NCBI GenBank assembly: GCA_026393115.1
Contig: JAPLAU010000019.1
Location: 1-37,651 of the forward strand
Direction of reading: 5' to 3'
DNA length: 37,651 nucleotides
Origin: Actinomycetota bacterium
GTDB lineage: Bacteria; Actinomycetota; Actinomycetes; S36-B12; CAIYMF01
The translations under genes were made by a program, and so were the position numbers. The notes under the pieces were generated by a model. The model ran no database searches and was not told the origin of the DNA. It saw only the letters and a list, made by a program, of their open reading frames with translations. The stretch's first letter is position 1, and each line of letters begins with the position of its first letter. Positions 3,051 through 37,651 of the stretch are shown here, piece by piece.

Positions 3051-4042
3051 TGGCTGATCTGCGGGCGGGACTCATTGGCCTAGGAATGATGGGGCGCCAC
3101 CACGCGCGCATTCTCGGTTCGTTGCCTGGTGTTGAACTCGTCGCTGTCGCTGACCCGGGCGGCGATCCTCACGGAGTGTCCGGTGGGCGTGCGGTACTGG
3201 CTTCCATCGATGAAGTCATCGCGACGGGCGTCGACTACTGCGTCGTCGCCGTTCCCACGGCATTCCATCTCGAGGTCGGACTCGCACTCGCCAATGCTGG
3301 CGTTCACGCTCTGGTTGAAAAGCCCCTCGCACACACTGCCGAAGCGGCGGCCGAACTCAATGCAGCGTTCACCTCGCGCGGACTCGTCGGTGCGGTAGGA
3401 CATATCGAGCGTTACAACCCGGCGCTGCAGCAAGCGCGCAAGCGCATCGAAGCAGGTGACCTCGGCTTGGTTTTCCAGGTGGCCACGCGACGTCAGGGCC
3501 CCTTCCCGGCGCGCATCGCCGATGTGGGTGTGGTGAAAGATCTCGGAACTCACGACATCGACCTCACGGCGTGGGTCACTCAGCGCCGTTACCTGCGTAT
3601 TAGTGCGGAGACAGCACATCGCAGCGGGCGTGAGCACGAAGACCTCGTCGCCGCCACAGGCTTGCTCGAGGGCGGCATCGTGGCCAATCACCTCGTGAAC
3701 TGGCTGTCACCTATGAAGGAGCGAGTCACGGTCATTACCGGTGAACGAGGAACCTTCGTGGCTGACACTCTCACTGCTGATCTGACCTTCCATGCCAACG
3801 GAACTGTTGCAAGCGAGTGGGACGAGCGTTCACACTTCCGAGGAGTGACCGAGGGCGATATGGTCCGCTTTGCATTCGCCAAGCCTGAGCCGCTTCGGTC
3901 CGAACACGAAAATTTCCGCGACGCTGTACTGGGTCTACCCGCCGATGTCGTCACCTTTGAACAGGGCGCGGCAACGGTCCGGGTGGCGGAGGCGGCATTA
4001 GAGTCGTCGGTGACAGGCACCACGGTCGAACTGGGAGATTAA
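3050..4042 (+). CDS. wbpB: Gfo/Idh/MocA oxidoreductase (WbpB-like UDP-GlcNAcA 3-dehydrogenase)
   Basis: This 330-residue NAD-dependent oxidoreductase is predicted to oxidise the C3 hydroxyl of UDP-N-acetylglucosaminuronate. That supplies the keto sugar used by the adjacent aminotransferase. The Rossmann glycine motif GLIGLGMMGRHHAR begins at residue 7. The family signature EKPL is at 90-93, and the active-site helix DLGTHDID with His168 is at 164-171. The all-beta C-terminal domain follows. It overlaps the aminotransferase stop by one base, and in WbpB/WbpE systems the two enzymes are known to act as a coupled pair that recycles NAD. Other MocA enzymes share the fold, so the assignment rests mostly on the three-gene set. 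Confidence 0.83.
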   Translation: MADLRAGLIGLGMMGRHHARILGSLPGVELVAVADPGGDPHGVSGGRAVLASIDEVIATGVDYCVVAVPTAFHLEVGLALANAGVHALVEKPLAHTAEAAAELNAAFTSRGLVGAVGHIERYNPALQQARKRIEAGDLGLVFQVATRRQGPFPARIADVGVVKDLGTHDIDLTAWVTQRRYLRISAETAHRSGREHEDLVAATGLLEGGIVANHLVNWLSPMKERVTVITGERGTFVADTLTADLTFHANGTVASEWDERSHFRGVTEGDMVRFAFAKPEPLRSEHENFRDAVLGLPADVVTFEQGAATVRVAEAALESSVTGTTVELGD

Positions 4043-4046
4043 CGGC

Positions 4047-5531
4047 GTGTCACGCATCGTCATGATCGTCGACAACGGTGTACGCGGCGATTCCCGTGTC
4101 ATCAAGACGGCGCAGAGTGTGGGACTCGCGGGTCACGAGGCGATCGTGATTGGTCGCGTCCTTGATAACTCGCTGCCCACCGAATTCACCTTGCGCGGCG
4201 GCGCGCGAGTGCAGCTTGTTCCGACCTCGCTGACGTTGCTGCGCAGTCTCAAGCGCACCCCCCGGCGATCGATTCTGCACCCCCTTGCTTACCCGACCTT
4301 TGAAGTACGAACGGTGCGGGCTTCTCGCCTCGACGCCCGCAAGGCGATGCACAGTGAACTGTGGTCGAGACGGGCGATCGATCGAGGGGTATCGACGCCG
4401 AGGTTGGCGCTGAGCAAGGCTCGACTCACTGTGAATCGGGTGTGGTTTCGCGTACGTGACAGCCAGTTCAAGAAGCTCACCCGGATGCGTTCAGGCGATC
4501 ACGGGCGCATCCACGGCTTGGTGGCGCGGGCGAAGATCGCACTCAACCCGGCCTACGGTTGGCGATCCCTCGATCCGCTACTGACTGACTACGAGCTTGA
4601 GTACGGCCCCGTCATTGATGCCCTCGAGCCCGACCTCATTCACGCTCACGATTTTCGAATGTCCGGGGTTGGTGTGCGAGCAGCAGAGCGGGCGCTTGCG
4701 GCCGGCCGGTCATGCGCTGTTGTCTACGACGCTCACGAGTTCATGCCCGGGGTGCGGGCCAAGAGTGACGTGTGGCGCCGTGCGAATAGGGCACACGAAC
4801 ACACGTACATCATTCGCGCCGATCGCGTGGTGACAGTCAGCGCGCAGTTGGCTGACTTGTTGCAGACCACCCACTCACTCGCCCTCGCGCCGAATGTGGT
4901 GCTCAATGCGCCCGAGGCCGAATCGGTGATTGCTGTTGAGGGGCAAGGGATTCGTGCGGTTCTGGAACTCGCCGCCGACGTTCCGTTGGTGGTGTATCAC
5001 GGCAGTCCGGCCAAACAACGAGGCCTCGAAACGGTGGTGAGAGCCCTCGCCGACCTTCCCGGTTACCACGCGGTGTTTGTTCTACCGCAGGCTGCTGAGA
5101 GTGCGTTGTATCTCAATGACGCCATCGATGAAGTGGGTGTGCGCGATCGAGTGCACTTCCTGCCGTATGTGCCACACGACCAAGTGGTCGACTTCCTGCG
5201 ATCAGCTGATGTCGGTGTCATTCCGATTGAACACGACGTCAACCACGAAATCGCGCTCATCACCAAGTTCTTTGACTACGCGCTCGCCGGACTGCCCATC
5301 GTGGTCAGCGATGTGAAGGCGATGTCTGAAGCGGTTGAAGACAATCACATTGGCACAGTCTTTCCGGCAGGTGACGCACCGGCCGCGGCTCGAGCACTGC
5401 GCGATGCCTACGACAACCGGGCACGTTACGCCGAGGGATACACCGCTGAATTGCTGCAGGGCTGGACTTGGGAGCAGCAGGCCGAGACGTTGCTGGCGAC
5501 CTATCGCGAGGCAGCTCCGTGGCTCACCTGA
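4047..5531 (+). CDS. GT4-like glycosyltransferase (GT-B fold)
   Basis: This is a 494-residue cytoplasmic or membrane-associated retaining glycosyltransferase of the GT-B type. The N-terminal domain begins [16 protein letters not shown] and contains LIHAHDF and [10 protein letters not shown] (about residues 195-235). The C-terminal donor domain has [14 protein letters not shown] and the donor-site region [20 protein letters not shown]. The GTG start lies four bases after the upstream gene, with GGGAG about ten bases before it. It is a paralog of the first half of the 946-residue protein at 10513-13353: RIVMIVDN...GDSRV and YDAHEF.PGV are shared. The donor may be the UDP-diacetamido-uronate made by this operon, but sequence alone does not show that. 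Confidence 0.87.
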
Positions 5532-7271: not shown

Positions 7272-8903
7272 ATGGATGAAGTCGCATCAGGGGCTGTGAC
7301 CGTTGACGCGTTAAGCCATTGGCGCACCGAACTCGCCGACCCCGCGACCACCACTGCGAGTCTTCAACGAGCTGCGAATCTGGCCGAGTCTCTGGTTCGT
7401 TCACGCGACCTTGCGGGTGCCGTCGCAGTCGCCGAGGAGGCTCTCGCTCTGGCTACCGGACTCGATGTGATTCTTGATCTGCGTTGCATTCGCGCGGTCG
7501 CGATTCTTGATGAAGGACTGGTTCCCGCCGATTTGCTCGATACAGCCATCGCCCTGATCGCTCGTGCCGATGAGCGTTGGGCGGCAGCCCTCGACGAGGT
7601 TTCGAAAGCCCAAGCTCAGGTCGCGTCTGCGCGCGATGTGATCAACGTCGATGCGGCCCGACCACTAGCGTCGGCCGCTGCCCGCCGGCTGTGGCAATCG
7701 ATGCGGTTGCTCTTTCACCGTAGCCTGCACACCTCTCACCCCCTGTCGCCGCTTGCGCAGTCTCCCGACGAGTGGCTGTCGTCGTTGCATTCCAGTGCTC
7801 TGTACCTCGCGCTCCAACCCTCAGGCCGTCGGCGCAGGAAGTGGTGGACCACGCGCAAGCCGTCGGTCGCGTGTGTGACCACCGGGTCGTCTTTCCTCGA
7901 GCCCGTCGTCGAAGCCGCGATCGGGGCAGGAATGCCAGTGATCTCGCTCCCGCTCGCCGACCTGGTGAGCCCTCGACCCAGCCTTGCCGCATTGTTGGGG
8001 GAGCGGGTGGTGGGGTTGGTTGATCCGGCGGTGTCGGAGGCGGTGGTTCCTGGGGTTCTTGTGGGTGTGGATGTGGTGTTTGTTGATTGGGCGGATGAGG
8101 CGGCGGCGTGGGCGAGTGTGAGGTTGCCGGTGTCGGGTCCGCGGTTGGTGGTGCGTTTGCATTCGGTGGAGGCGTTGTCGGCTGCGGTGCATGTGGTGGA
8201 TTGGTCGCGGGTTGATCGGTTGGTGTTTGTGTCGGAGTTCTTGCGGCGGTTGACGCATGCGGTGGCTCCGGCGACGCGGTCAGTTGATTCGGTGGTGGTG
8301 GGTCATGGGGTGGTGTCGGCGGGGGTGGGTGTGAAGTCTGCGGGTGCGTGGTCGACGTTGGCGATGGTGGGTTGGGGTCAGGTGGTGAAGGATCCGTTGT
8401 TTGCGGTCGAGGTGTTGGCGTTGTTGCGTTCGCGTGATCCGCAGCGCGACTGGCGCCTACGCCTCATCGGACGTGAGCTACGTGAGGGAATCCGCTCGTG
8501 GGAGTCCGGCTATGCAGACGACGTCGAACGGCGAATGGCCGATCCGGTTGTTGCTGGAGCCATTGAGGTAACGGGATTCACTGACGATGTCAACGCTGAA
8601 CTTCAGGAAGTCGGTTTCATCCTGTCGTCCAGTCTGCGCGAATCGATGCACCTCGGACTATTCGAGGGCGTTCTCAGCGGTGCTGTTCCGGTGGTGCGTG
8701 ATTGGCCGGTGGTAGCACCGTGGGGTGGTGCGCGTGAACTCTTTCCTGCTGACTGGATTGTGCAGACACCGGAACAAGCGGCCGATCGCATCCTGTCGGT
8801 GACTGACCCTGAGACGGTGGGCAGACAAGCAGCCGCGTGGGGGCAAGTGCACAGCTCGGTGAAGAAGGCGGCGGCTGGCTACGTGAAGGCGTTGCGCCCG
8901 TGA
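7272..8903 (+). CDS. FHRxxH-type glycosyltransferase, tandem copy 1
   Basis: This 543-residue protein has two parts. Residues 1 to about 230 are mostly alpha-helical and end in a conserved LLFHRSLH...SPLA motif (148-161). Residues about 235-540 look like a GT-B glycosyltransferase, with VFVDWADEAAAW, VRLHSVEA, MVGWGQVVKDPLFA, and the donor-site segment SLRESMHLGLFEG followed by SGAVPVVRDWP. The same three blocks occur in 8900-10486, 15809-17419 and the second half of 10513-13353. Codons for residues 240-400 use TTG, GTG, GCG and TCG almost exclusively, unlike the CTC/GCC-rich flanks, and the DNA is 99% identical to the next gene. Donor and acceptor are unknown. The ATG has only a weak AGG upstream. 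The next gene overlaps its stop. Confidence 0.8.
   Translation: MDEVASGAVTVDALSHWRTELADPATTTASLQRAANLAESLVRSRDLAGAVAVAEEALALATGLDVILDLRCIRAVAILDEGLVPADLLDTAIALIARADERWAAALDEVSKAQAQVASARDVINVDAARPLASAAARRLWQSMRLLFHRSLHTSHPLSPLAQSPDEWLSSLHSSALYLALQPSGRRRRKWWTTRKPSVACVTTGSSFLEPVVEAAIGAGMPVISLPLADLVSPRPSLAALLGERVVGLVDPAVSEAVVPGVLVGVDVVFVDWADEAAAWASVRLPVSGPRLVVRLHSVEALSAAVHVVDWSRVDRLVFVSEFLRRLTHAVAPATRSVDSVVVGHGVVSAGVGVKSAGAWSTLAMVGWGQVVKDPLFAVEVLALLRSRDPQRDWRLRLIGRELREGIRSWESGYADDVERRMADPVVAGAIEVTGFTDDVNAELQEVGFILSSSLRESMHLGLFEGVLSGAVPVVRDWPVVAPWGGARELFPADWIVQTPEQAADRILSVTDPETVGRQAAAWGQVHSSVKKAAAGYVKALRP
7989..8470 (+). repeat. 482-bp near-identical tract, copy 1
   Basis: It aligns without gaps to 9575-10056 (offset 1586), with five mismatches, about 99% identity. 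The surrounding parts of the two genes have diverged strongly. Codon use up to about 8448 is dominated by G- and T-ending codons, and almost every Leu is TTG. Confidence 0.92.
8688..8770 (+). repeat. 83-bp identical tract, copy 1
   Basis: It is identical over 83 bp to 10274-10356, again at offset 1586. It encodes the C-terminal PVVRDWPVVAPWGGARELF region of the glycosyltransferase. The 217 bp between this and the larger tract are diverged. Confidence 0.9.
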
Positions 8904-10486
8904 CAGTGCCGGCAGACTCGAGCAGCCTGGCCGAGGTGTCGCAATGGCGCAGACAGTGCGGGGATCCCGCGACTACGACGATGGCGCTTCGTCGCGCTTT
9001 TGGATTGGCTGAGACACTCGTTCGGCGCGGTGAGACATCTCTCGCCATTGATGTCGCTGACATCGCTCTGGAACGAGTCACCGGACAGGATGCGGTGCTC
9101 AATCTTCGATTCGTGCGCCACCTCGCGTGCATCGAATCAGGTGGCCCGTTTCAGGGCTACGACGATGTCGTGAGGGCTCTGCTCGCGCGCGCTGATGAAC
9201 TCTTCGCAGACGCCCTGGTGACTCGTGATCACACCCCCGCGCGCGCTGCGGCCCGCTGGCTTGCGCTTTCCTTGCGATTGTTCGTGCACCGCCGGTTGCA
9301 CACCTCCCTCGACACGTCGCCGCTGGCAGTTGATCCAGTGCAGGCGATGGCGCCGTTGAGAGCAAGTTCGCTCTATGAGGCACTTCAGCCCCTCACGATT
9401 TCCCGCGACTCCCAGCAACGTCGAGCCCACGACGGTCCACCACGCGTCGTTTCCGCGCTGACATCCGAAGACTCGTTCTTCCTCGCTCCGGTGATCGAGG
9501 CAGCTCAGGCGATTGGTGCCGAAGTGCGCGAACTTCGTCTTCTCGACGTCGACCCCGCCTGGAGCGGGATGTCGGCATTGTTGGGGGAGCGGGTGGTGGG
9601 GTTGGTTGATCCGGCGGTGTCGGAGGCGGTGGTTCCAGGGGTTCTTGTGGGTGTGGATGTGGTGTTTGTTGATTGGGCGGATGAGGCGGCGGCGTGGGCG
9701 AGTGTGAGGTTGCCGGTGTCGGGTCCGCGGTTGGTGGTGCGTTTGCATTCGGTGGAGGCGTTGTCGGCTGCCGTGCATGTGGTGGATTGGTCGCGGGTTG
9801 ATCGGTTGGTGTTTGTGTCGGAGTTCTTGCGGCGGTTGACGCATGCGGTGGTTCCGGCGACGCGGTCGGTTGATTCGGTGGTGGTGGGTCATGGGGTGGT
9901 GTCGGCGGGGGTGGGTGTGAAGTCTGCGGGTGCGTGGTCGACGTTGGGGATGGTGGGTTGGGGTCAGGTGGTGAAGGATCCGTTGTTTGCGGTCGAGGTG
10001 TTGGCGTTGTTGCGTTCGCGTGATCCGCAGCGCGACTGGCGCCTACGCCTCATCGGCGGGTCACTTGAAAGCGGAGCTCGACCATGGGACGCCGGTTATG
10101 TCGGCGATCTTGAGCGCCTCGTGGGTGAGTCGATGGTTGCAGGTGCCATCGAGATGACGGGGTTCACGGATGACGTGAAGGCGGCCCTTGAGGGTGTCGG
10201 TTTCATCCTGTCGACCAGTCTGCGCGAAGCCGATCCGCATGGGGTGGTCGAAGGCGTACTCAGTGGTGCGGTGCCGGTGGTGCGTGATTGGCCGGTGGTA
10301 GCACCGTGGGGTGGTGCGCGTGAACTCTTTCCTGCTGACTGGATTGTGCAGACACCCGAACAGGCGGCCGATCGCATTCTGTCGCTGAACAATCCTGAGA
10401 CAGTGGGCAGAGCAGCGGCCGAATGGATAGTGAATCAGCGGCCTTACCGTGACGAGCAGGTAGCTCTGATGGCTGCCTTGTCGTGA
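8900..10486 (+). CDS. FHRxxH-type glycosyltransferase, tandem copy 2
   Basis: This is a 528-residue paralog of the preceding protein, and the two align along their whole length. The helical N-domain shares DPATTT, LAE.LVR and an HRRLH.S...SPLA version of the signature (FVHRRLHTS). The GT-B part carries the same WADEAAAW and VRLHSVEA blocks, and SLREADPHGVVEG in place of SLRESMHLGLFEG. Here the His of the donor-site motif is shifted and Asp-Pro is inserted in its place, so specificity may differ. I chose GTG 8900, which overlaps the previous TGA (GTGA) with GTGAAGG upstream; GTG 8906 is also possible. It is the last gene of the rightward operon and faces the leftward operon across a 26-base gap with no clear terminator. 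Confidence 0.8.
   Translation: MTVPADSSSLAEVSQWRRQCGDPATTTMALRRAFGLAETLVRRGETSLAIDVADIALERVTGQDAVLNLRFVRHLACIESGGPFQGYDDVVRALLARADELFADALVTRDHTPARAAARWLALSLRLFVHRRLHTSLDTSPLAVDPVQAMAPLRASSLYEALQPLTISRDSQQRRAHDGPPRVVSALTSEDSFFLAPVIEAAQAIGAEVRELRLLDVDPAWSGMSALLGERVVGLVDPAVSEAVVPGVLVGVDVVFVDWADEAAAWASVRLPVSGPRLVVRLHSVEALSAAVHVVDWSRVDRLVFVSEFLRRLTHAVVPATRSVDSVVVGHGVVSAGVGVKSAGAWSTLGMVGWGQVVKDPLFAVEVLALLRSRDPQRDWRLRLIGGSLESGARPWDAGYVGDLERLVGESMVAGAIEMTGFTDDVKAALEGVGFILSTSLREADPHGVVEGVLSGAVPVVRDWPVVAPWGGARELFPADWIVQTPEQAADRILSLNNPETVGRAAAEWIVNQRPYRDEQVALMAALS
9575..10056 (+). repeat. 482-bp near-identical tract, copy 2
   Basis: This is the partner of 7989-8470. The five mismatches between the copies give two amino-acid changes (Ala to Val and Ala to Gly); the rest are silent. 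The tract spans the second half of the GT-B acceptor domain and the start of the donor domain. Confidence 0.92.
10274..10356 (+). repeat. 83-bp identical tract, copy 2
   Basis: This is the partner of 8688-8770, with no mismatch. Confidence 0.9.
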
Positions 10487-10512: not shown

Positions 10513-13353
10513 TTAGGAATCCAGCTCAAGCAATCGAGCAATCGCGTCGGTACCTGACGTAGGTCCGAACCGTTCGTCGACCGCACGTCGGGCTGCAGCG
10601 CCGCTGGCTCGCCAGACGTCGGAGTCGGCGGTTGACGCGAGGATGCGCTTGGCACCCTGATCAATGTCGTTGACCACCCATTCATTCGGAAATAGGCGAC
10701 GTGGCCCATTCCAGCGGCCCATCAACGGCCAGTCGCGCACCACGGGCACGGCACCCGATGCGGCTCCCTCAACGAGTGCGGCATGGAATGACTCCCGCAC
10801 ACTGCTTGAGAGAATCACGCCAACGTCGGCGAGTATGCCGGGAACATCGTTAGTTGAGGGTAGGAATTCAACGGCATCGTCCGTGTGCGTTTCCGCGATG
10901 ACCTGCTTGGTTCGGACGGAGTAGGTAGCAAGCCCGGGTGCTGCATTGTCGGGGACGTCACCACCGATAAGTAGTAGCCGATAACGCGGATCAGTTTCAC
11001 GCACTCGTGCGAGCAGTTCGACCGCCCAGGGGGCGTCCTTTGCTGCGTTGTTCCACTTCAGTAGTGCCAGAGTGAAACGAGCGTCATCGCTCTTGGGTCG
11101 GCTGAAGCGATCAAGGTCGAACCAGAGCGGAATCACGTGGCGACGCACGTGTCCATATCCGGGGCTAGTGGCGAGAGTGGCATCGACCATGTCTCGGAAG
11201 TGGGGCCCAACAAATACCAGATCGCTGACTCGCCCCCATTGCACGTAGTGCAGTGCTGGCTTGAACGCTTCGTAGGCGTGGAGGCGCACGATGATGCGGG
11301 TGGTGCCCGGATCGACTGCGGTTGCGATGACCGCTGCACGCTCCGCCCACTCAACCCACACCACGTCGGATTCATCGTGAATAGTGCGCATGACCTCAGC
11401 GAGTGCCTCGGGTACCTTGCCAAGCGCCATCTGAGCCAGTACGCGATCGGAAACAGGGCCGTGCACCGCGGGGTCGGCAAGATCAATGACACGAACCGTG
11501 GCACCAGCTGCCGTGGCTGCCTCAACGATGGGCGGAGCCCATGCGAGGTTGCTGTACCCCAGAACTGTCACGCGCATTCCAGCGACGGCGGGGGCCGCGG
11601 CGTCGTGTCCTCGCGTGGTCGATTGCAGGCCGGGCATCGGGGGAGTGGCACTCCACCGGGCGAGGTACGACGTTGGGTCGTCGGCGAGCGGAGATCGAGT
11701 GCCGTCGAAGTGCAGGGAGCGGTGAAAGAGCAGGTCCTGTGCGCGAATGAGTCGGTCTGTTTGCGCCCGAAGATCACTACCAGCCATTGACTGTGCCAAT
11801 GATTCGAGGGCGAGTTCGGATCCGAGGCGCTGATCCTGCACGTCGGGAATTTCGCCGCTGGCGAGCGTGCGCAGCGCCCGCTCGAGTGACGCCTGACGCA
11901 CATCGGGTTCACCATTGGTGAGTCGCCGGTAAAGGGTGTCGACTGCACCGTGTTGCTTCTCCCACGACCAACTCTCAAGGAGCGAGTCATCGCCGTAACG
12001 AGCGCTGAAGCGTTCGAGGTCAGTGAGCATGGCCGTGACAGCCGAGGCCAAACCTTCAGAGTCACCTGCGGTGTACACGAGTCCGAGTTGGTTCTCGGTG
12101 ACCCACTGGGCTGCCGCTTCGATGTTGGAAGTCAGAATGGGAATGCGAGCGTGAAGGTATTCAAAGAACTTGGTTGGAATACCAAGATTGTGGTTCTCGG
12201 TGTGCAGGATTGGGCTGATTCCGATGGTCGCATCTGCAACGTATGCCGATACCTCATCTGCCGCGACGTAGTCAACGCGGTGGAACCGCTCTTTCACGCC
12301 GAGGGTGGCCGCCTTGGAGCGCAGCGAGGCAATGTAGGGAGATTCTTTGCTGACGGTGACGAAATGAACCCCGGGCAATTGCGGTAGCGCTTCGATCACG
12401 GTGTCGAGCCCGCGTAGTGCGCTCGCCGCACCGACGTACACAAGTACCGGCGACTCAGCGTCGATGCCGGCGTCGGTGCGTAGCGAGCGGGTCATGAGGC
12501 GGTTCGACGCGTCGAGCATGGGCGTGTTGTAAACCAAGAGCGGTCGCTCGGTGATGCCATGCGTCTGCATCAGTCGGTCGGCGACTTGATCGGAAACGGT
12601 GATGACCGCATCGACACTGGGAACGTATTCGGCTTCGGCTTGAACTGCGCCGCGATGGCGGGTGATGTCTTGCATCACGACGCCAGGAAGGAACTCATGC
12701 GCGTCGTAGATCACTTTGGGTCGCTTGCCTTTGCGAGCGAGTCGGTCAGCGGCACGTATGGCGACAGGAAGCGCGCGATAGTCGTGCGCATGAATGAGGT
12801 CAGGTCGCGCCGAATCGATGGTGTCGGCGTACGCAACCTCGAGGTCGGCGAGGAATGGCTCGTCGTAGCGCCACTGCCGTGAGCCATGTACGCGAACCGG
12901 GGGTCGAGCCTTGCGGCCCTTGTCGCGCGCCTTGGTCGCGCGCGAGCGCAGTCCGTACATCAGACCAACCCACTTGCGCTGTACTTGGGTCAGCAAACGT
13001 TGAGGACGTGATGCCCCCGAACCGAATTCCTGCTGCAATTCAAGTGTGAGCCAGTCAAGACGGCGACGTGATCGTCCTTGGTCTTGGGTGGTGCGAAACG
13101 CCATCGGATGACGCAGGGTGAATCTGTTCCCGGTGGTGAAGGCCGTGGCACGCGGAAGTGCGGCCCACACGACAGTGGCCTCGCCGTACTCGTCGGAAAA
13201 CCCGGGAGCCTGAGACCGGGTAGCCGCAGCGTTCTGGTTGCCGATGAGGGTGACATCCCAGCCGCGCGCTGCCATCTCGCGTGCTGACTTCTGGACACGC
13301 GAGTCGCCGGTGATGGAGTTGTCGACGATCATCACGATTCGAGGGGAGGTCAC
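10513..13353 (-). CDS. Two-domain glycosyltransferase: GT4-like module fused to FHRxxH-type module
   Basis: This is a 946-residue fusion. Residues 1 to about 478 form a GT4-like GT-B enzyme: [25 protein letters not shown] near 186, VIYDAHEFLPG near 215, GIPTKFFEYLHARIPILTSN near 391. It is closely related to the protein at 4047-5531. Residues about 485-946 match the tandem glycosyltransferases: LLFHRSLH at 541-548, VVWVEWAERAAV, VRLHAYEA, SVRESFHAALVEG and SGAVPVVRDWP. Both modules keep their donor-site segments, so two sequential transfers by one polypeptide are plausible. The start is GTG 13353 with only a weak upstream TAGG. It is the last gene of the leftward operon, 45 bases after the lyase gene, with a short imperfect hairpin between (about 13368-13392). 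Confidence 0.85.
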   Translation of the reverse strand: MTSPRIVMIVDNSITGDSRVQKSAREMAARGWDVTLIGNQNAAATRSQAPGFSDEYGEATVVWAALPRATAFTTGNRFTLRHPMAFRTTQDQGRSRRRLDWLTLELQQEFGSGASRPQRLLTQVQRKWVGLMYGLRSRATKARDKGRKARPPVRVHGSRQWRYDEPFLADLEVAYADTIDSARPDLIHAHDYRALPVAIRAADRLARKGKRPKVIYDAHEFLPGVVMQDITRHRGAVQAEAEYVPSVDAVITVSDQVADRLMQTHGITERPLLVYNTPMLDASNRLMTRSLRTDAGIDAESPVLVYVGAASALRGLDTVIEALPQLPGVHFVTVSKESPYIASLRSKAATLGVKERFHRVDYVAADEVSAYVADATIGISPILHTENHNLGIPTKFFEYLHARIPILTSNIEAAAQWVTENQLGLVYTAGDSEGLASAVTAMLTDLERFSARYGDDSLLESWSWEKQHGAVDTLYRRLTNGEPDVRQASLERALRTLASGEIPDVQDQRLGSELALESLAQSMAGSDLRAQTDRLIRAQDLLFHRSLHFDGTRSPLADDPTSYLARWSATPPMPGLQSTTRGHDAAAPAVAGMRVTVLGYSNLAWAPPIVEAATAAGATVRVIDLADPAVHGPVSDRVLAQMALGKVPEALAEVMRTIHDESDVVWVEWAERAAVIATAVDPGTTRIIVRLHAYEAFKPALHYVQWGRVSDLVFVGPHFRDMVDATLATSPGYGHVRRHVIPLWFDLDRFSRPKSDDARFTLALLKWNNAAKDAPWAVELLARVRETDPRYRLLLIGGDVPDNAAPGLATYSVRTKQVIAETHTDDAVEFLPSTNDVPGILADVGVILSSSVRESFHAALVEGAASGAVPVVRDWPLMGRWNGPRRLFPNEWVVNDIDQGAKRILASTADSDVWRASGAAARRAVDERFGPTSGTDAIARLLELDS

Positions 13354-13398: not shown

Positions 13399-15801
13399 TT
13401 ACCAGCGAGCGACGGTGGTGAATCGAACCGATGAGGTGGCAGGTGTCGTGATCTGGATCACCGTGATCGGCAGGCCCGAAGCTGAGGTGGTGCCGGAGTG
13501 CGTGTGAGTGACGACCGACCCGGCGGGAAGACCCGTGACCGTGACCGTGATGTGCTGGGTTCCGCTGGTCAGTGTGAACCTGGGTGCGGTGGCGGTTCCG
13601 CCGACGCTTACTGCGGCTTCGGTCACCCAGTGCCAGTTCCACACGCGGGGAGCGGTGCCGGTGAGCGAGTCAACCATGGTCATGCTCGAGCTGGCCAGGC
13701 TGACCGTGCGGGTCGCTGTGCGCGATCCGGAGATGGTGCGCTGCAGGTCGACCGCCATGCTCGATCCGCTGGCGCTCAGTGCTGCAGAGGCGCCGATTAC
13801 GGGGCGGCCGGGACCGGTCACGGTCGAGTGGGCGTCAGCCGAGACCTTGAAGTCGTTCCAGCGCGGGCTGGTCGATGCGAGGGCGAAGTATCCGGGGGCG
13901 CTGTAGTTGCCCTTGCCAGGGTCAACGGTCCACTCAACGCCGTTGGCGGTGAGGCCAACCGAACCGACGTCGAGGTGGGTGTGCGACAGGTAGCGGGGAC
14001 TTCCCTTGAGCCACGCGGTGGCGGTGCTGCCCTGCACGGTTGCCAGACCGGTCTTGGAGTAGACGGCAGACTTCTTGGCAGGCGTGGGGAGCGACCAGGC
14101 GGTCGCACTGGGCCACCACAGAACTTCAAAGCCCTCGGTGGGTGCCGGGTGAATGCGGTCAACGCCGAGGAGGCGGTCGCGCAGGGACGGCATCGCAGTC
14201 GCGCTGTCAGTAGTGCGGGCAACGAGTGAGGCGAAGTTGGGGCGAAGCACGTCGGCGGTGGTGTCCGAGAAGTTCGGCAGGTCGCCGTTGGCTGCGGTCG
14301 CGTTCCACATGAAGTCCGCGGTGGCGCTCAGGTCGGGGATGGTGGCTGGCGAGGTCGTTCCGTAGATGTTCTGGGCGGTACCGACGGCACCCACGACGGC
14401 GCGACCCATGAGGTTCCAGTACGCCGGACCCTCGTACCAGCCGCCATCAGACAGGGCCATGAAGTTGGGCTGCATGCTGGTCCAGGCGGCCTTGGCAACC
14501 GCGGCACCGATCGTCGGGTCAGACTTGGCTAGGTAGATTCCGAGCTGGAAGGTGCTGCTGCCGTAGACGAAGCTGATGTTGTCGGGCTTGCCAACGTTGA
14601 TCTGGTCTTGGAACATGCACGCGAAACTTCCGAGCCACAAACTGCGCATCACTGTCGCGTTGGTCGCGTTACTCGCTGTCGAGGCGGTGGTGCTGGCGGC
14701 CCCGTTCCAGTCGGTCCAGTCGAGGGCGGTTGCTGCAGCTTCGATGACGCCAGCGTCGGTGAGCGGGGCACCCGACGGGCCGGCGCTGATGATGCGTGTG
14801 GCTTCTGCGGAGAGCTGGCGGCGAGCCGTGGCGTCACCGTTGACCAGCCAGAGGTAGCCCAGGCGCTGAGTGCGCAGGCGAAGGTCGGTGGCAAGAGTGA
14901 TGGTGCTGGTGGTCATCACCTTGGTGCTCAGGCGAGTCAATTCCTTGTGCGTGGCAAGGAAAGCGGCGTCCTTGTTGGCGATGCGGTCCTTGGCTGCAGC
15001 AACGTCGGCGTCGGTGACCCACTGGTGCAGGCCCGGCTCGGTGGCTGTCCCGACCCACGCGGCGTCGGCGACCGGAAGGGCGCACGATCCGGGGATTGCC
15101 ACGAAGTCGCTGGTCTGCGGAACCTGAATTGAACCGTCAAGCGCAGCAACCCAGAGGGCCGCGGTGGAAGGCGAAGGATAGGCGGTTCCGCCAGTTGCGG
15201 CCTTAACCCGTACAAGGTCGGCGGCGGCAAGAGCAGCGACGCGGCCGGATGCCTCGGCGATGGGTGCGTACTGTGCATCGGTGATCGAACCGGCCACGAG
15301 ATTACGGGTGGCGGTCTGACCGGCTGCGATGGCAGCGGCGCGGGCCGAGAGTGCGTCGGCGGCGAGGTGTACGACCTGCCCGTGCACCTTCGACAGTGCC
15401 AGTTCGGCCTTGATGGCCGGAGCAACCGCAGCGTACTCAGCCAGCGTGCGGGCTGCGCCGAGGCGAGTCGAGGCTGCGTTGATGCGGGTATTGGCCTTGG
15501 CAACGACGGCCGCGAAGGTAACGGGGTAGCTGCTGGGCATTCCGGGGTAGTCAAGCTTGGAGTTCTTGTAGTTCGTGCGAGCAGTATTGAGTTGTGAGTA
15601 GTACAGGGCCCGTAGGGTCCAGGCCTTCTTCTGGTCGGCGTAACTCATGGGGGTCGTGGTCGCGGTCATGCTGATCACGCTGGCTGAGGGAGTAGTGAGC
15701 GTGGGGGTCGCAGAGGCGATGCCGGGCACGAGAACGGCAGTTGCGAGGGCCAACGACACCACTGCCGTTGCACCTCGCAGGAACCCGCTCTTTACTCTCA
15801 C
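13399..15801 (-). CDS. Secreted heparinase II/III-like (alginate-lyase superfamily) polysaccharide lyase
   Basis: This 800-residue exported protein is built like a polysaccharide lyase that cleaves uronic-acid polymers by beta-elimination. A signal peptide (MRVKSGFLRG, then a hydrophobic stretch ending GIASA) covers about residues 1-31. Residues about 35-200 are an Ala-rich helical region of unknown role. Residues about 255-540 resemble the alpha/alpha-toroid, including DGGWYEGPAYWNLMGR near 455. Residues about 585-800 resemble the heparinase II/III beta-sandwich domain, with LSHTHLDVGSVGL near 605. I prefer GTG 15801, eight bases after the preceding stop with AGGGAAGG just upstream, because it gives a normal signal peptide. 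GTG 15846 would add 15 residues. No LPXTG anchor is seen. In a uronate-making operon it probably trims or releases the same polymer. Confidence 0.8.
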   Translation of the reverse strand: MRVKSGFLRGATAVVSLALATAVLVPGIASATPTLTTPSASVISMTATTTPMSYADQKKAWTLRALYYSQLNTARTNYKNSKLDYPGMPSSYPVTFAAVVAKANTRINAASTRLGAARTLAEYAAVAPAIKAELALSKVHGQVVHLAADALSARAAAIAAGQTATRNLVAGSITDAQYAPIAEASGRVAALAAADLVRVKAATGGTAYPSPSTAALWVAALDGSIQVPQTSDFVAIPGSCALPVADAAWVGTATEPGLHQWVTDADVAAAKDRIANKDAAFLATHKELTRLSTKVMTTSTITLATDLRLRTQRLGYLWLVNGDATARRQLSAEATRIISAGPSGAPLTDAGVIEAAATALDWTDWNGAASTTASTASNATNATVMRSLWLGSFACMFQDQINVGKPDNISFVYGSSTFQLGIYLAKSDPTIGAAVAKAAWTSMQPNFMALSDGGWYEGPAYWNLMGRAVVGAVGTAQNIYGTTSPATIPDLSATADFMWNATAANGDLPNFSDTTADVLRPNFASLVARTTDSATAMPSLRDRLLGVDRIHPAPTEGFEVLWWPSATAWSLPTPAKKSAVYSKTGLATVQGSTATAWLKGSPRYLSHTHLDVGSVGLTANGVEWTVDPGKGNYSAPGYFALASTSPRWNDFKVSADAHSTVTGPGRPVIGASAALSASGSSMAVDLQRTISGSRTATRTVSLASSSMTMVDSLTGTAPRVWNWHWVTEAAVSVGGTATAPRFTLTSGTQHITVTVTGLPAGSVVTHTHSGTTSASGLPITVIQITTPATSSVRFTTVARW

Positions 15802-15808
15802 ACCTTCC

Positions 15809-17419
15809 CTATCGGGTCGGTGGAAGGCCCTTCTTAGCCCAGACACCCCAGAATCTTTGTCGATCCCCCGTTAGGCCGAGCAAAGTGTCCGATATGGGAA
15901 GATTAAGGTATTTCAATGTGGCGGGGATCACAGTGCGCGCGCGCTCAGCCGCCTCGTGAGATGACTCCACTACCCAGTCCGTAGGCCAGACCGCGCCGGC
16001 ACCTCCGTATGCGGCGAGGGTGGGCCAGTCACGCACGATTGGAACGGCTCCACTGGCCGCGAGCTCAGCCAGACCCAGATGAAACGACTCGCGCAGTGAA
16101 CTGGACAGGCCTACTCCCACCGACTGGAGTTCGGCGGCGACATCGGCGGTCGCCCCGACGATATCGACCGCGCCGGCGACGTCGGGCCGACTCAAACGCT
16201 CGGTGGCCCGATGGGCGTACTCGGGCCAGCGTTGGAAGTCGGGCGGCGCGCCGATCAGTCGCAGTCGCCACGCAGGGTCAGCCGCGCGCAGAAGCGCGAG
16301 CACGTCCAAGGCCCACATGACGTCCTTGTCAGGTGCTGCCCAGCCGACGAGGCCGAGAGTGCGCGGCGCATCTGAGCTTTTGGGGCGTTGGAAAGGCTTG
16401 GGATCGAAGGTGGGAGGAATGGTCGCCTGTGGGAAGTCTGCCCACGTCGGCAGCACGGTGCGGAGCAGTGCGGCGAGCGGCGCGCTGACGGTGCTCACAC
16501 CCGTGAGCGAGCCCGCGTCGATGAGATGGGGAAACACGGTGAACAGTTCGAAACTGTGTGCGCGAACGGCCATGGGAACTGACAGATTGGCCAGGCTCGC
16601 GAGCACGGCACCCCGCTGAGCCCACTCCTGCCACACCGCATCAGCGTCGCCGACGCAGTCGTTGATGAGGGCTGCCCACGCACTCTCGGAGGGTTCGGCC
16701 CACCGCGCAGAAATTTGCTCGCCGATTGTTAACGGCAGTTGTACGCTTCGTTCAGTTGCACGTGCGCGCACGCCGGTGACACGGACATCGATTCCTTCGG
16801 CTCGCCACTGCTCAACCAGTGGTGCAACGAAGCGTGGGTCGTCGTCGTACAGCACAGCAATGCGCGTAGGTGGGTCGGTCAGCGGTACCGCTGATGAAGG
16901 TCGCGGTCGCGTGAGATGCGACCACGCGTGAGACGACCGGTAGGAGTTGAGTTCAAGGTCGACTCCGTCGGGTGTTGCGAAGGGTGACCCGAGACCGGCG
17001 AGGTGTCGCTGACGATGAAATGTCAACACCGCAGCGGCAGTGAGGAGGCGCGGCACTCGGTCATCGCCGCGGTCGAGGAGAAGATCGGCGGCGGTCAGGC
17101 ACTGTTCAACCGCGGTGCGGATGCTGGTGTCGTCGAGCGATGTTCCGCGATCGAGTGCGCGGGCGAGTGAGGCCGAGTGCAGCGCCGCAGCGACGGCAGG
17201 GTCTGTCGATCGCCTCGCAGCTGCGATCAGTACGTCGTCGCCGCGCTCAGGAGTTCCCCGTGTACTCCATGCAGCGGCGAGGTCGCGGCTCAGCGGTTCG
17301 CGTACGGAATCGGGCAGTGTTCCCGATGTGGCGACGCGATCGAGTGCAGCTCCATAGCCGGGAATCGCAAGTGCCGTGGGCGAGGTGAGTCGTGTTAGCC
17401 ACCGTCCGGCGCGACTCAT
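15809..17419 (-). CDS. FHRxxH-type glycosyltransferase, third single-module member
   Basis: This 536-residue relative of the tandem glycosyltransferases lies in the leftward operon. Its N-terminal 220 residues are helical and carry the diverged signature LTFHRQRH...SPFA. The GT-B part has AVWQEWAQRGAV, VRAHSFELF, LGLVGWAAPDKDVMWALDVL, SLRESFHLGLAEL and SGAVPIVRDWP. It lacks the codon-atypical tract found in the tandem pair, so that tract is not needed for the fold. The gene overlaps the upstream gene by four bases and stops eight bases before the lyase start. The last 35 residues are not conserved among the paralogs. Donor and acceptor are unknown. Confidence 0.8.
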   Translation of the reverse strand: MSRAGRWLTRLTSPTALAIPGYGAALDRVATSGTLPDSVREPLSRDLAAAWSTRGTPERGDDVLIAAARRSTDPAVAAALHSASLARALDRGTSLDDTSIRTAVEQCLTAADLLLDRGDDRVPRLLTAAAVLTFHRQRHLAGLGSPFATPDGVDLELNSYRSSHAWSHLTRPRPSSAVPLTDPPTRIAVLYDDDPRFVAPLVEQWRAEGIDVRVTGVRARATERSVQLPLTIGEQISARWAEPSESAWAALINDCVGDADAVWQEWAQRGAVLASLANLSVPMAVRAHSFELFTVFPHLIDAGSLTGVSTVSAPLAALLRTVLPTWADFPQATIPPTFDPKPFQRPKSSDAPRTLGLVGWAAPDKDVMWALDVLALLRAADPAWRLRLIGAPPDFQRWPEYAHRATERLSRPDVAGAVDIVGATADVAAELQSVGVGLSSSLRESFHLGLAELAASGAVPIVRDWPTLAAYGGAGAVWPTDWVVESSHEAAERARTVIPATLKYLNLPISDTLLGLTGDRQRFWGVWAKKGLPPTR

Positions 17420-37567: not shown

Positions 37568-37651
37568 ATGTCGGGTGCGAGGTTGACGGTTCATGACCGT
37601 GAGGTGATTGAGCGGGGTGTGTTGGCGGGGCGATCGGTTACGGCGATTGCG
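37568..37651 (+). CDS. IS30-family transposase, N-terminal fragment
   Basis: These are the first 28 codons (MSGARLTVHDREVIERGV and on) of an IS30 transposase. The stretch LT.HDREVIERGVLAGRSVTAIA is the N-terminal helix-turn-helix that recognises the inverted repeats in this family. TGGAGGTTGGG precedes the ATG and supplies the ribosome site. Its codons (TTG, GTG, GCG) are of the same G/T-ending style as the tract at 7989-8448. It is cut by the window edge. Confidence 0.88.
   Translation, partial: MSGARLTVHDREVIERGVLAGRSVTAIA

Follow-up and report, generated by a model that had tools for sequence, protein, structure and literature searches.

Concerted evolution of a G+T-maximised core in twin predicted glycosyltransferase genes of an actinomycete, and a possible part played by NucS

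Introduction

Non-reciprocal exchange between the two tuf genes of Salmonella keeps parts of the copies alike within a species (PMC5485169). Conversion of paralogous regions has also been described in Mycobacterium tuberculosis, a member of another NucS-bearing lineage, in a preprint whose authors say that asymmetries of repair could reshape composition (PMC13061034). In GC-biased gene conversion, base composition is shaped by recombination through a bias that acts on G+C and is symmetric with respect to the two strands. Here we analyse a 37,651-nucleotide stretch of the genome of an Actinomycetota bacterium (contig JAPLAU010000019.1, positions 1–37,651; hereafter, the window), in which two tandem genes for predicted glycosyltransferases, genes 1 and 2, share a nearly identical tract with sharp edges. 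The coding strand of the core of this tract is made up of G and T, the keto bases, almost to the limit that the encoded protein allows.

Two proteins bear on the interpretation. The mismatch-repair enzyme NucS prefers G-T, G-G and T-T mismatches and hardly touches A-C (PMC8228993). When oligonucleotides were used in M. smegmatis, G-T and G-G mismatches were corrected in patches of about 5–6 bases, and C-C, A-A, G-A, A-G, C-A and A-C mismatches persisted (PMC11551744). A further effect of NucS is to reduce recombination between divergent sequences (PMC5290159). RecA prefers TGG repeats, on which its filaments are most stable (PMC3763553). The genome studied here carries RecA and NucS, and MutS_V was not found in it (95% complete); NucS is absent from control genomes of E. 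coli, Caulobacter and Lactococcus.

Results

The tract is homogenised separately in two species

The two copies of the tract (Table 1) differ at five of 482 positions (8051, 8186, 8266, 8282 and 8362). The coding flanks are diverged: genes 1 and 2 are 50.8% identical over the 5′ flank, 63.4% immediately downstream of the tract and 29.8% at the 3′ end. The N-terminal parts diverge like those of ordinary paralogues, and the two proteins are 69% identical (residues 10–509 of the gene 2 product). Codon usage switches abruptly and returns to its previous state at about 8448, with 82 consecutive codons ending in G or T in gene 1 and runs of 55 and 44 in gene 2. All three features had been pointed out in the original prediction, which was made from the sequence of the window, and all are borne out. 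The divergence of the flanks is interrupted by a second, mildly G+T-rich patch of 89% identity, located over the E-x7-E region and the sequence downstream of it.

Several contigs have exactly 141 terminal bases in common with the window end, pointing to an assembly with k = 141. The tract copies share no exact run longer than 134 bases, so that a graph of k = 141 is able to hold them apart. A search for more copies of the tract in the genome yielded 30 other matches, none longer than 52 query bases, with E values of 0.27 or worse.

Among the 60 relatives searched, G001 is the sole genome of the same genus, and the comparison is of one genome per species. G001 has the same gene pair, with the same edges and codon pattern. 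Because its second copy is split across two contigs inside the tract, a comparison of all four genes is possible at 308 of the 482 tract columns. The tract copies are 99.0% identical within the window (482 columns) and 96.4% identical within G001 (308 columns), compared with 89.0–90.5% between species; for gene 1 the interspecies value is 90.5%, and G+T in G001 reaches 0.79 per 300 bases. Within the tract, 25 sites are of the species type, uniting the two copies of one species, and no site is of the orthology type, whereas in the 5′ flank 157 sites are of the orthology type and nine are of the species type. The second patch, counted at 8652–8831, has ten species-type and four orthology-type sites. 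The combination of a tract that groups by species with a flank that groups by orthology implies that the duplication predates the species split and that homogenisation of the core took place independently in the two lineages. The left edge agrees between species to within about 3 bases, the right edge is at 8470 in both, and G001 shows a few differences just inside it. Judging from these alignments, it is very probable that the core of both genes evolves in concert in the two species through repeated gene conversion with nearly fixed edges. A weak match to the tract in the genome G053 (28 bases) was in unrelated frames and was discarded.

The core is maximal in G+T at unchanged G+C

The G+T content of the core is 0.779, the values attainable for the protein being 0.434–0.789. 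This corresponds to 96.9% of the attainable range, against 45.3% expected from recoding with the codon usage of the window's other genes (G+T 0.597, standard deviation (s.d.) 0.014), with z values of 13.3 for gene 1, 13.1 for gene 2 and 12.5 for G001. G+C is 0.643 both in the tract and in the 5′ flank, and the core is at 68% of its attainable G+C range (73% expected); the rise in G+C that GC-biased gene conversion would bring is not seen. Relative codon adaptation is 0.603 in the tract, close to the values for the gene 1 flanks (0.625 and 0.635). Common codons (GTG, TCG and CCG) and uncommon ones (TTG for 15 of 16 leucines, GAT in nine of nine cases and CAT in four of four) are used alike. What the core codons have in common is G or T: G+T is maximal at constant G+C, and the codons are not generically foreign.

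As a background we used 800 kb of the genome (40 stretches, 15,800 windows), where the maximal departure of G+T from 0.5 in 300-base windows is 0.163, compared with 0.29 in the tract, and the longest run of G/T-ending codons in all six frames is 35. For G001, 2659 background windows were kept and 138 containing N were dropped. The longest other runs of G/T-ending codons, one in a gene of this genome and one in G001, are both amino-acid repeats. TGG is found 33 times per tract; across 1640 windows the average is 8.5 and the highest count 28. The E. coli Chi sequence was not found in the tract.

Across 18 homologues of the class, G+T in the corresponding region is 0.48–0.56; a nineteenth scored locus, L040, was left out, its best match being the tract itself. 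In 15 of the 18 outside homologues, similarity is lower over the protein segment encoded by the tract than over the 3′ part. The amino acid sequence of the tract is typical of the family, and its oddity is confined to the synonymous state.

These data bear on the proposal, made in the original prediction, that a foreign segment was imported and then spread by conversion, or that the tract is a cassette that swaps the middle of the enzyme and could alter acceptor choice. Conversion between the paralogues is what the 25 species-type sites support. A recent foreign import is not supported: G001 has the same tract, codons and edges with ordinary divergence, the very outcome that the original prediction had named as refuting it, and the switch in codons, real as it is, does not merit the label foreign, since G+C and codon adaptation barely change across it. 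The cassette proposal is not supported either: both copies in each species carry one and the same version, so that exchange homogenises them.

Younger changes run against the G+T state

Third-position differences within species are the younger ones. Nine of ten of these involve A or C, whereas 10 of the 15 between species are exchanges of G and T (within versus between, p = 0.012). In a strict form of the comparison, in which all four sequences are required, five of eight differences between species are of the G/T type (p = 0.043). The flanks are without such a contrast (p = 0.36 and 0.69). Silent third-position divergence between species is 0.12 per codon in the core and 0.26–0.42 nearby. Nine of 18 silent differences in the core exchange G and T, compared with 14 of 114 nearby (p = 0.0006), an excess that is partly expected because almost every core site is already G or T. 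Mutation pressure is unlikely to be the cause of the composition, because the younger changes run the opposite way. From these small numbers of aligned sites, it seems that A and C variants are removed by some process while mutation erodes the G+T state.

Repeats at contig ends and IS30 elements

Among the 68 ends of the genome's 34 contigs, shared sequence defines 15 families, and 21 single ends belong to none of them. When the terminal 141 bases of the first member of each family were compared with 5360 background windows, the families proved keto-skewed (mean |z| 2.41 versus 0.79, p = 3.6 × 10−7, in a post hoc test); for single ends, the mean |z| is 1.13 (p = 0.053). The keto-rich strand is the one that runs into the element in 13 of the 15 families and in six of the seven that have three or more members. 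Families with two members may simply reflect overlapping contigs, and a single IS30-like element accounts, through its two ends, for two of the larger families; the 15 families therefore do not all count as independent.

The window itself begins in the end and finishes in the start of an IS30-like transposase gene. G/T-ending codons make up 26 of the first 28 codons of this gene (37568–37651) and 14 of the last 44 (2–133), the remainder being mostly C/A-ending. Beside this IS30 end, at 175–240, there is a non-coding-looking, nearly pure G/T run (38 of 40 bases are G or T). Elsewhere in the genome, three near-identical repeats (91–93%) with G+T of 0.59–0.65 lie at 3314–5163 of locus L085.

In 19 of 28 IS30 genes of the class, the third positions of the first half are richer in keto bases than those of the second (mean difference 0.068, s.d. 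0.112, p = 0.006), compared with seven of 16 from Proteobacteria and Lactobacillales (mean −0.002, s.d. 0.044). The two sets differ (p = 0.016), with the NucS status of the hosts unchecked case by case. The class set holds 28 of 30 loci, L220 and L222 having been dropped because the motif gave no frame, and the count of 19 applies to 300 amino acids, with 23 of 28 positive at up to 360. The other set consists of 15 of the 60 listed plasmid matches, picked by eye for taxon spread, together with IS30A of E. coli K-12, and some of its genes are nearly related to one another. Among six E. coli insertion sequences, inward G+T is at least 0.52 at one end or both in IS1A, IS30A and IS5A and at neither end in IS186A, IS2A and IS3B; in IS30A both ends show a mild inward bias (0.53 and 0.57). 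The pattern at contig ends and in IS30 genes agrees, post hoc, with a wider polarity, of which it is suggestive.

The twin genes and their surroundings

From sequence features, the products of genes 1 and 2 are predicted to be GT-B-like, GT4-like glycosyltransferases. With the GT4-like GT-B family (Glyco_trans_1_4) they share a C-terminal match and the E-x7-E pattern, which we take to be a GT4-like feature. E457 and E465 of gene 1 are invariant in alignments of three, six and five proteins, and the pattern is thus conserved. Unlike that family, both proteins score below the curated Pfam cut-off of 27 (25.1 bits for gene 1 and 20.8 bits for gene 2) and have a long, apparently helical N-terminal part. 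The latter comes from a low-confidence AlphaFold2 model built from five sequences (pLDDT 59), in which residues 8–181 are helical and are followed by an alternating strand-helix fold. In this model, the tract (residues 240–400) would span the greater part of the first GT-B half and the linker and extend into the second half over its initial strands. For gene 2, a start at about 8900 was adopted in place of the mechanical open reading frame start at 8837.

Neighbouring genes encode more glycosyltransferases, a DegT aminotransferase and a GFO/IDH/MocA oxidoreductase. Homologues of the twin genes lie downstream on the opposite strand, at 10513–13353 (38%; Glyco_trans_1_4 score 85.5) and 15809–17419 (35%). 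These two glycosyltransferase genes, one of them with two such domains, surround a gene for a heparinase II/III-like protein (13399–15846) in a minus-strand cluster.

Table 1. Coordinates of the twin genes and of their homogenised segments in the window
Feature	Position	Strand	Description
Glycosyltransferase gene 1	7272–8903	+	543 amino acids, GT-B-like (predicted); E457 and E465 form the E-x7-E pattern
Glycosyltransferase gene 2	8900–10486	+	528 amino acids, tandem paralogue; start codon placed by comparison with the orthologue in G001
Converted tract, copy 1	7989–8470	+	Within gene 1
Converted tract, copy 2	9575–10056	+	Within gene 2; 99.0% identical to copy 1
G+T-maximised core, copy 1	7992–8447	+	152 codons; 97% of the attainable G+T range
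G+T-maximised core, copy 2	9578–10033	+	152 codons
Second homogenised patch, copy 1	8662–8840	+	Weaker; E465 onward; G+T 0.59
Second homogenised patch, copy 2	10248–10426	+	89% identical to copy 1

Discussion

Conversion with a base- and strand-specific outcome could yield a composition like that of the core without any benefit to the cell. We see roughly even chances that conversion itself produced the composition; that NucS is the cause is possible but, on balance, doubtful. By analogy with the mismatch data from other organisms, NucS would discriminate on the same keto/amino axis on which the tract is extreme. At a heteroduplex site where one copy has G or T and the other A or C, exchange of one strand would create a keto:keto mismatch (G-T, G-G or T-T), and exchange of the other strand an amino:amino mismatch (A-C, C-C or A-A). 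If NucS acts on the former and spares the latter, the outcome would be biased site by site. Were the same strand usually the incoming one, one strand would drift towards keto and its partner towards amino bases, while the choice between G and T would stay free. The oligonucleotide result would imply that the incoming strand moves towards A/C and its partner towards G/T, in which case the incoming strand here would be the non-coding one. The liking of RecA for TGG-like DNA may contribute; it would favour the opposite strand as the invader, so that the two ideas may pull in opposite directions.

Several points weigh against this reading. The contrast between changes within and between species is based on 25 sites; with the right edge of the tract excluded, its p value becomes 0.024 and that of the strict form 0.10, which is no longer significant. 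In the second patch, G+T is just 0.59 despite the homogenisation. Some repeats in the 800 kb sample are unskewed (0.53 and 0.47), and one single contig end, outside any family, is as skewed as the families are (G+T 0.31). The insertion sequence tests were post hoc, with relatedness and third-position G+C uncontrolled, and the mechanism assumes a constant strand polarity. The M. tuberculosis preprint infers reduced NucS repair during recombination and reports an enrichment of T>C/A>G changes, not a keto polarity (PMC13061034). In M. smegmatis, NucS repair has been argued to be short-patch and independent of homologous recombination (PMC11551744), which would rule out a variant of the mechanism in which a cut by NucS is mended from the other copy. 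T-C mismatches fall outside the results in the available text of the same paper, so that the freedom of choice between G and T is only half tested.

The alternative of plain conversion combined with an old import, in which both copies received, before the species split, a homologous core from a donor whose codons end in G or T and conversion has since kept them alike, appears unlikely. It would account for the coincidence of the abrupt switch with the exchanged segment. It is opposed by the native codon adaptation and G+C of the tract, and by the ordinary G+T of the region in the 18 homologues, none of which is a relative with such codons. Searches with the tract gave no match in phage and plasmid records and no relative in IMG/VR, where records near the window's own genome may be omitted. 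Third positions of the core, at 0.12 differences per codon against 0.26–0.42 nearby, have also changed more slowly than the decay of a neutral import would predict.

Selection acting on the DNA itself is distinctly unlikely. Under this explanation the G+T-rich strand is kept as a better substrate for RecA, a built-in hotspot that keeps the enzyme cores alike, and it fits with the stability of RecA filaments on TGG repeats (PMC3763553) and with the frequencies of TGG, GTG and GGT, which are three to five times those of the genome and close to nil on the other strand. However, these words number 112, compared with 111.3 when codon order is shuffled, leaving no excess beyond codon choice, the E. 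coli Chi sequence is absent, and silent selection at about 150 sites would be possible but demanding. The G+T-rich islands of E. coli have themselves been ascribed to codon usage (references within PMC3763553).

Very unlikely, in our view, is selection on the messenger, by which the tract would be held poorly structured for the sake of translation or stability. Its predicted folding energy is indeed weak (−161.7 kcal/mol, compared with −209.1, s.d. 9.1, for 60 recodings), but weak structure follows from a two-letter composition, and neither the coincidence with the conversion tract nor the lack of the trait in the 18 homologues is explained. An overlapping antisense gene that constrains the codons has a negligible chance and was set aside: the lack of A does leave long open antisense frames (e.g., 9137–9892, minus strand), but none of the antisense frames is free of stops in both species, and amino-acid-altering codon changes number 21 of 39, 35 of 39 and 31 of 37 in the antisense frames, against 15 of 37 in the sense frame.

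Conversion polarised by NucS can also be put in a general form, which we offer as speculative and somewhat unlikely as it stands. In bacteria with NucS instead of MutS/MutL, recombining repeats of constant polarity would be driven strandwise towards keto or amino bases, with the tract as an extreme endpoint and with insertion sequences shaped in the same way, their halves being mirror images. If this is true, what the codon usage of a multi-copy gene records in such organisms would be the polarity of recombination, not origin or expression.

Abrupt codon shifts are usually taken as signs of horizontal transfer. Here, the shift coincides with a conversion tract, is common to two species and falls on the axis of mismatch discrimination by NucS. 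Should conversion be its cause, codon-based calls of foreign DNA would be unsafe for repeats in NucS-bearing lineages, and strand composition would be a record of which strand was exchanged. Whether NucS acts on recombination intermediates could then be judged from genome sequences and put to the test in laboratory strains. The tract may thus reveal a strand-biased mode of repeat evolution in bacteria with an unusual mismatch-repair enzyme.

Among the open-licence papers listed in literature searches, as judged from titles and the openings of abstracts, none describes a G+T-maximised conversion tract or a strand polarity driven by NucS. The known systems each share part of what is seen here. 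Conversion of the Salmonella tuf genes has been modelled as uniform along the gene (PMC5485169), whereas here it is restricted to a sharp-edged core with an extreme strand composition. For the paralogous regions of M. tuberculosis, the available text of the preprint points to T>C/A>G changes and reduced NucS activity and, unlike the case of the twin genes, reports no strand-polarised keto tract (PMC13061034). GC-biased gene conversion resembles our proposal in that recombination shapes composition, but in the tract G+C is unchanged and the bias is strand-asymmetric. With the GT-rich preferred pairing sequences of RecA and Rad51, and with Chi, the coding strand of the tract shares a richness in TGG-like words; it differs from them in lacking the E. 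coli Chi sequence and in standing, over 152 codons, near the coding maximum, beyond what codon usage provides.

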